From an uncultured Eubacterium sp. (lineage in GTDB: Bacteria; Bacillota; Clostridia; Lachnospirales; Lachnospiraceae), in contig CAJOPA010000102.1 in the NCBI GenBank assembly GCA_905236235.1, positions 1 to 36,216 of the forward strand: a stretch of DNA of 36,216 bases. The letters run 5' to 3'. Position numbers and translations under genes: made by a program. Positions 2,748 through 3,518 of this stretch are shown here, piece by piece; the first letter of the stretch is position 1; each line of letters opens with the position of its first letter. The notes under the pieces are model-generated. The model was not told the DNA's origin and searched no databases. It was given only the letters and a program-made list of their open reading frames with translations.

Positions 2748-3116
2748 CTACTTCTTCTTATTTGCTACAGTTCTCTTCGGACCTTTTCTGGTTCTGGCAT
2801 TGGTCTTGGTCTTCTGACCGCGAACCGGCAGACCCTTTCTGTGGCGAATGCCACGATAGCATCCGATTTCCTGCAGACGCTTGATGTTCATGGCAACTTC
2901 TCTACGAAGATCACCTTCTACCATCTGCGTCTCATCGATCACAGCGCTGATACGCTTTACCTCATCATCCGTAAGGTCTCTGACACGTGTGTTCGGATCC
3001 ACATTCGCTGCTTCAAGAATGCGATTGGAGCTGACACGTCCGATACCATAGATATAGGTAAGGCCGATCTCAACGCGCTTTTCTCTTGGTAAATCTACAC
3101 CTGCAATACGAGCCAT
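2748..3116 (-). CDS. rpsM: 30S ribosomal protein S13
   Basis: [26 protein letters not shown]...[22 protein letters not shown]. Confidence 0.98.
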
Positions 3117-3160
3117 GTGTGTTTACACCTCCATCATTTCTTCAAAAATCAATAGTTTCC

Positions 3161-3253
3161 GACAAAGAACGTTCGGTATCCCATCCTTTGTCAGGCCATA
3201 AAGGCCTTTATTTTATACTCACGGATTCCGAGTGACGAGTTCATCCTCCGTGA
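3161..3253 (-). ncRNA. Candidate structured 5' leader of rpsM (three hairpins)
   Basis: By-eye stems (plus coordinates): GACAAAG 3161-3167 / CTTTGTC 3186-3192; AGGCC 3193-3197 / GGCCT 3203-3207; TCACGGA 3219-3225 / TCCGTGA 3247-3253, in a 171-nt rpmJ-rpsM gap. Confidence 0.45.
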
Positions 3254-3287: not shown

Positions 3288-3401
3288 TTAACCCTGTCTC
3301 TGTTTGTGCTTCGGGTTTTCGCAGATCACGCGAATGCTACCCTTTCTCTTGATAACCTTGCACTTTTCGCAAATCGGTTTCACTGAAGATCTTACCTTCA
3401 T
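3288..3401 (-). CDS. rpmJ: 50S ribosomal protein L36, zinc-ligand form
   Basis: [47 protein letters not shown] upstream. Confidence 0.97.
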
Positions 3402-3434
3402 TTTCCTAAACCTCCTTTCCCAAAACATCGTGCA

Positions 3435-3479
3435 AAACGCCGAAAAACGGCACTTTTGCCCGGCGTTTCTCCAAAAGTG
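3435..3479 (-). ncRNA. Candidate H-type pseudoknot in rpmJ 5' leader
   Basis: Minus-strand order: CACTTTTG-gag-AAACGCCG-gg-CAAAAGTG-ccgttttt-CGGCGTTT; two perfect 8-bp helices interleaved a-b-a'-b'. Confidence 0.5.
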
Positions 3480-3489
3480 TCCATTTGAC

Positions 3490-3518
3490 ATTATAACAAA
3501 GGGCTTACCCCTTTGCAA
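3490..3518 (-). promoter_or_regulatory. Sigma70-type promoter upstream of rpmJ/alpha operon
   Basis: Minus strand TTGCAA-N17-TATAAT; spacer region carries inverted repeat CAAAGGG-gtaag-CCCTTTG. Confidence 0.75.

Follow-up and report, generated by a model that had tools for sequence, protein, structure and literature searches.

A putative structured 5' leader of rpmJ, with a possible lineage-specific pseudoknot, at the head of the alpha operon in an uncultured Eubacterium sp. of the Lachnospiraceae

Introduction

The alpha-operon leader of E. coli (RF00140, Alpha_RBS) is an S4-binding pseudoknot that is located at the start of rpsM. The S4-Clostridia leader (RF03140), by comparison, lies between rpmJ and rpsM, upstream of the genes rpsM-rpsK-rpsD-rpoA-rplQ (PMC7247131), and the B. 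subtilis rpsD leader, which is not a pseudoknot, precedes a separate rpsD gene (PMC10931766). Our search of the literature found no description of an rpmJ leader.

The window considered in the present work is the whole 36,216-nucleotide stretch of DNA that was analysed, from an uncultured Eubacterium sp. For a segment between infA and rpmJ (3479-3435, minus strand), the original prediction proposed an H-type pseudoknot with S4 or L36 as its candidate ligand. Like the E. coli element, this segment lies 5' of alpha-operon genes and a pseudoknot topology is possible for it; unlike that element, it is upstream of rpmJ and gives no sequence or model match, and the S4 site is expected elsewhere. The S4-Clostridia leader is from the same operon and bacterial class, and its AUACCG loop is shared with a window hairpin at 3192-3161; however, it is placed between rpmJ and rpsM and not at 3479-3435, and the window hairpin is without the second hairpin of the model. 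With the B. subtilis rpsD leader the locus would have Firmicutes S4 autoregulation in common, but no match to that leader is found in the window.

Results

The rpmJ Promoter and the Two Helices

The segment lies in the 125-nt infA-rpmJ spacer, between the end of infA (3527) and rpmJ (3401-3288, minus strand), and it begins 11 nt below a TTGCAA-N17-TATAAT promoter. The features of this region are as follows:

3490..3518, minus strand: rpmJ promoter TTGCAA-N17-TATAAT, from a consensus scan, with counterparts in relatives
3472..3479, minus strand: 5' arm of helix a, CACUUUUG, a conserved transcript-start segment, from the sequence and the congeners
3461..3468, minus strand: 5' arm of helix b, AAACGCCG, from the sequence
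3451..3458, minus strand: 3' arm of helix a, CAAAAGUG, from the sequence, with a perfect counterpart in no congener
3435..3442, minus strand: 3' arm of helix b, CGGCGUUU, from the sequence
3411..3418, minus strand: rpmJ Shine-Dalgarno (SD) sequence AAAGGAGG, whose AAAGG pairs with CUUUU of the helix a 5' arm in the nested minimum-free-energy fold
3288..3401, minus strand: rpmJ, encoding bL36 in the form with zinc-binding Cys/His residues (Pfam PF00444, E 2.6e-19)

The promoter (3518-3490), the rpmJ start codon ATG at 3401 (minus strand) and the SD sequence AAAGGAGG at 3418-3411 all agree with the original prediction. The promoter is sigma-70-like, and transcription probably starts at about 3482-3481, 2-3 nt ahead of helix a; rpmJ is likely to be co-transcribed with rpsM and the genes that follow. 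Approximately 300 rpmJ upstream regions were gathered, mostly from one family, which the named hits identify as the Lachnospiraceae. Promoter counterparts score at least 12 in 263 of the 300 relatives' spacers, with TATAAT in 127 and a spacing of 17 in 224, and these figures describe recurrence and not a calibrated frequency, the best site having been picked in each spacer. The promoter is conserved across the family, and the proposal that a transcript driven by a dedicated rpmJ promoter begins with this segment is supported.

Between the -35 and -10 boxes, about 12 nt past infA, the window also carries a perfect 7-bp inverted repeat (CAAAGGG-gtaag-CCCTTTG; 3515-3497, minus strand), which is a weak, sub-threshold match to the Clostridiales-2 RNA (24 bits); among the relatives compared, it is not a family-wide feature. 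An expected known element, the S10-Clostridia ribosomal leader (RF03136, 87.8 bits), is found at 16448-16367 (minus strand).

On the minus strand, 3479-3435 reads CACTTTTG-gag-AAACGCCG-gg-CAAAAGTG-ccgttttt-CGGCGTTT, and the two perfect 8-bp helices predicted for it were reproduced exactly, in a-b-a'-b' order and with loops of 3, 2 and 8 nt that are feasible for an H-type pseudoknot. No other interleaved 8+8 (or 7+7) arrangement with short loops is present in the whole window. The number expected per dinucleotide-shuffled window is 0.07 (8+8) or 0.32 (7+7), and shuffling the spacer 20,000 times gave the 8+8 arrangement once, all of these figures applying to a helix pair that was chosen by eye from the entire window. 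The helix pairing is real and unusual.

Comparison with Congeners

Both helices together are present in none of the six other genomes that made up our comparison set within the genus, so that, among the genomes compared, the pseudoknot in this form is found in the present genome only. Three congeners (L031, L033, and L034) retain the 5' arm (GGACACUUUUG) without a perfect partner arm: L031 and L033 have ATGTCAAATGGACACTTTTGG in common with the window, followed directly by a short SD region, and L034 starts as the window does and has a different central hairpin. A comparable pseudoknot of different sequence could form in L034 (shuffle p 0.07-0.08), with GAGAAGC:GCUUUUU spanning an 11-bp helix. 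The leaders of L032, L017 and L020 differ from that of the window. Since two congeners carry a nearly unstructured leader of 48 nt and two others a leader of 36-39 nt, leader structure is not essential in the genus. A KOW-protein search of genome contigs found named relatives and no closer congeners.

Structured Leaders Across the Family

About 100 of 263 leaders are 30-39 nt long and more than 100 are longer than 58 nt. For 111 dereplicated long rpmJ leaders, each transcript start of ~18 nt was matched against its own leader body and against swapped ones. Pairing is stronger with its own body (z -5.8; 0 of 20,000 permutations), also within length-matched blocks (z -5.2) and when groups A and B are omitted (z -4.3); an earlier set of 76 leaders gave z -5.05. 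The 5' arm of the window finds its best pairing among the 111 bodies in its own, and the 13 window-like leaders taken alone give a non-significant result (z -1.3, p 0.10). A control segment deeper inside the leaders reaches equal significance, and therefore the signal is one of leader structure in general and not of the 5' end specifically. As in ribosomal-protein leaders, pairing in the homologous leaders exceeds that given by composition. The family's long rpmJ leaders are thus structured RNAs on which selection acts, and to this extent the original prediction is supported.

Sequence elements also recur in the long leaders, viz. UAUGCCC in 15 of 111 (0.3 in shuffles) and U(A/G)UGN(C/G)C in 33 of 111 (3.4 in shuffles). 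In relatives such as L043, L046, L055, L125 and L235, UAUGCCC or UGUGCCC is conserved ~30-50 nt into the long rpmJ leader. The 224-nt rpmJ leader of L067 contains three tandem copies of a unit with CTGCGGGGATACCTGGATGCCAT; stretches like this unit, which are reminiscent of the S4-Clostridia sequence, occur in L043, L055, L062, L185 and L195. For the pattern GGACRCTTTTGR, no clear excess over a reversed control was found across the family. Rfam scans of the window and the leaders returned no family that matches the rpmJ leader, and a covariance model (R1) built on the group A leaders found members in no more than a few genera and missed the window.

To see whether a crossing helix is general, we scored how well the loop pairs with the sequence 3' of the first helix. 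The family test gave z -2.1 and its length-matched form z -0.9, and a crossing helix is not established family-wide. Crossing-helix pairing in groups A and B gave z -1.7 (p 0.046), flank-to-loop pairing in the window-like group (group C) gave p 0.07, and covariation counts for group A contain one both-sided pair, with 76 of 500 shuffles equally high. With helices a and b kept together in none of the six congeners and the generic crossing helix non-significant after length matching, the expectation of covarying or kept helices in homologous leaders was not borne out. Read by eye, a helix between the loop and downstream sequence, with A-U/C-G exchange, could form in the leaders L056, L025, L070, L242 and L314, and helices of this kind were drawn by hand for L056, L025 and L070 (UAUGCC:GGCAUA, UCUGCU:GGCAGA); such exchange in individual leaders is suggestive only, as a hint of a crossing helix. 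A pseudoknotted rpmJ leader class in the family is possible but unproven; in the Lachnospiraceae class proposed, helix 1 would contain the first nucleotides of the transcript and the loop would pair just upstream of the SD sequence.

Energies and Competing Folds

Stacking sums are -11.3 kcal/mol for helix a and -15.5 kcal/mol for helix b. The pseudoknot is placed at about -15.5 kcal/mol by a hand estimate of summed stacks with a Dirks-Pierce-type penalty and not by a dedicated pseudoknot folder; the 45-nt core folded in nested form reaches -14.5 kcal/mol at best. For the full 84-nt UTR, the best nested fold comes to -24.7 kcal/mol, with a z-score versus shuffles of only -1.9. Because this fold is lower by estimate, the pseudoknot is feasible but is not the predicted end state. 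A hairpin that competes with it is:

3432..3459, minus strand: GCAAAAGUGCCG-UUUUU-CGGCGUUUUGC, -12.2 kcal/mol, from folding; excludes both pseudoknot helices

In the nested UTR fold, the GCAAAAGUGCCG-UUUUU-CGGCGUUUUGC hairpin lies inside further pairs and CUUUU of helix a is placed on AAAGG of the SD sequence, which is paired at 0.73-0.98 in the final fold. When prefixes of the leader were folded, as an equilibrium calculation and not a kinetic simulation, helix a stood alone at 32 nt (-7.7), helix b was possible from ~47 nt, and the SD-pairing fold appeared only from 68 nt.

The rpmJ-rpsM Spacer and S4

Our Rfam search placed the S4-Clostridia leader of relatives between rpmJ and rpsM, in agreement with its published position. 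RF03140 is not found above 37.5 bits in the window or in its congeners. An AUACC-loop hairpin like that of RF03140 is present in this spacer of the window and not at the reported segment:

3161..3192, minus strand: S4-Clostridia-like hairpin between rpmJ and rpsM, stem of 11 bp including G-U, loop GGAUACCGAA; below the RF03140 cut-off

This hairpin reads GACAAAGGAUG-GGAUACCGAA-CGUUCUUUGUC from 3192 to 3161 on the minus strand, with the loop AUACCG. The motif A(C/U)ACC(C/G) occurs in 71 of 144 rpmJ-rpsM spacers, versus 15 after one shuffle, and the flanks of the first motif in each spacer pair much better with their own than with swapped partners (z -8.9). Own-versus-swapped tests were used for these hairpins because MAFFT misaligned the unequal stems of the congeners and RNAalifold was unsuccessful. 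Eleven S4-Clostridia-type hairpins, in an alignment and structure of our own choosing, have both-sided changes in 5 of 6 pairs, with a slid control much lower, and a model built from them (R2) scores the window at 3184-3169 with 9.4 bits (E 1.1). By its loop, position and covarying stem the window hairpin can be described as S4-Clostridia-like, but by score it is not a member; it looks like the candidate S4-binding site of the operon. No match to Alpha_RBS was obtained at the leader at the gathering cut-off, and the only match elsewhere (3084-3193, 11.9 bits, where the cut-off is 38) is at chance level. The presence of the S4-Clostridia leader in relatives and of its look-alike in the window, both in the next spacer, makes S4 an unlikely ligand of 3479-3435, contrary to the original prediction, and nothing in our analysis favours L36.

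Discussion

The reading we prefer, at a probability of about 0.5, is that the segment belongs to a fast-evolving structured 5' leader, which is transcribed from the family-conserved infA-rpmJ promoter and acts as an element for translation initiation and/or 5'-end stability. Selection would keep the first ~18 nt paired with something in the leader and not in a single fold. The 5' arm CACUUUUG of the present genome has two possible, mutually exclusive partners, viz. CAAAAGUG and the SD sequence. Early in transcription it may pair with CAAAAGUG and, together with helix b, give an H-type pseudoknot that leaves the SD sequence free; in the complete leader, the more stable nested fold would put the same CUUUU on the SD sequence, and lower initiation of rpmJ is predicted. 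Both the folding order and the effect on translation are drawn from the folding model. The likeliest role is a putative one in translation initiation and/or mRNA 5'-end stability for rpmJ and its downstream genes, and the pseudoknot is possibly a lineage-specific conformer. What stands of the earlier interpretation is the 5' end of the transcript and selected pairing in the leader, whereas the conservation of this pseudoknot and S4 as its ligand do not.

A rather unlikely reading is that both helices arose by chance in a U-rich/A-rich spacer and do nothing by themselves: they are unconserved in the genus, 0.07 such arrangements are expected per shuffled window, and CAAAA/GUUUU and CGCCG/CGGCG repeats allow several alternative pairings, but the arrangement is rare in spacer shuffles and leaders are structured family-wide. 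The same rarity (1 in 20,000), along with the same topology being possible with other sequences in L034 and in the distant L056, L025 and L070, argues for the pseudoknot as the functional form, i.e., a lineage-specific H-type structure that would bind a ribosomal protein (e.g., L36) or serve as a switch. We consider this unlikely, since helices a and b are kept in no congener, the crossing-helix tests are weak family-wide, once length-matched, and in groups A/B and C, and estimated stability favours the nested fold. Less likely again is that pseudoknotted rpmJ leaders make up a class of their own in the Lachnospiraceae, so far undescribed, which would control rpmJ, and the alpha operon perhaps as well, through a ligand other than S4; the window would be an extreme, rapidly diverged case.

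An S4-binding regulator of the alpha operon analogous to the E. coli pseudoknot has its position in the operon in its favour and nothing else, and in view of the RF03140 leader in the rpmJ-rpsM spacer of relatives, the AUACCG-loop hairpin there in the window and a leader that Alpha_RBS does not match, we regard it as highly improbable. There is similarly very little likelihood that the segment is a transcription attenuator (terminator/antiterminator) of the alpha operon: GGCAAAAGUGCCGUUUUU resembles a weak hairpin with a U-run and GGGCAUAGUAUGCCCUUUUU is found in some relatives (L125), but a terminator scan makes no call at the segment in the window, and in many relatives the UGCCC element is followed by A-runs and not by U-runs.

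The present work carries the lesson that a perfect-looking pseudoknot may be private to a single genome. Control of the alpha operon in Clostridia-type Firmicutes has so far been only partly known. Two candidate elements are now separated, viz. a fast-evolving, structured rpmJ leader that has no Rfam family and an S4-Clostridia-like hairpin ahead of rpsM, which indicates the segment to be tested with each protein.
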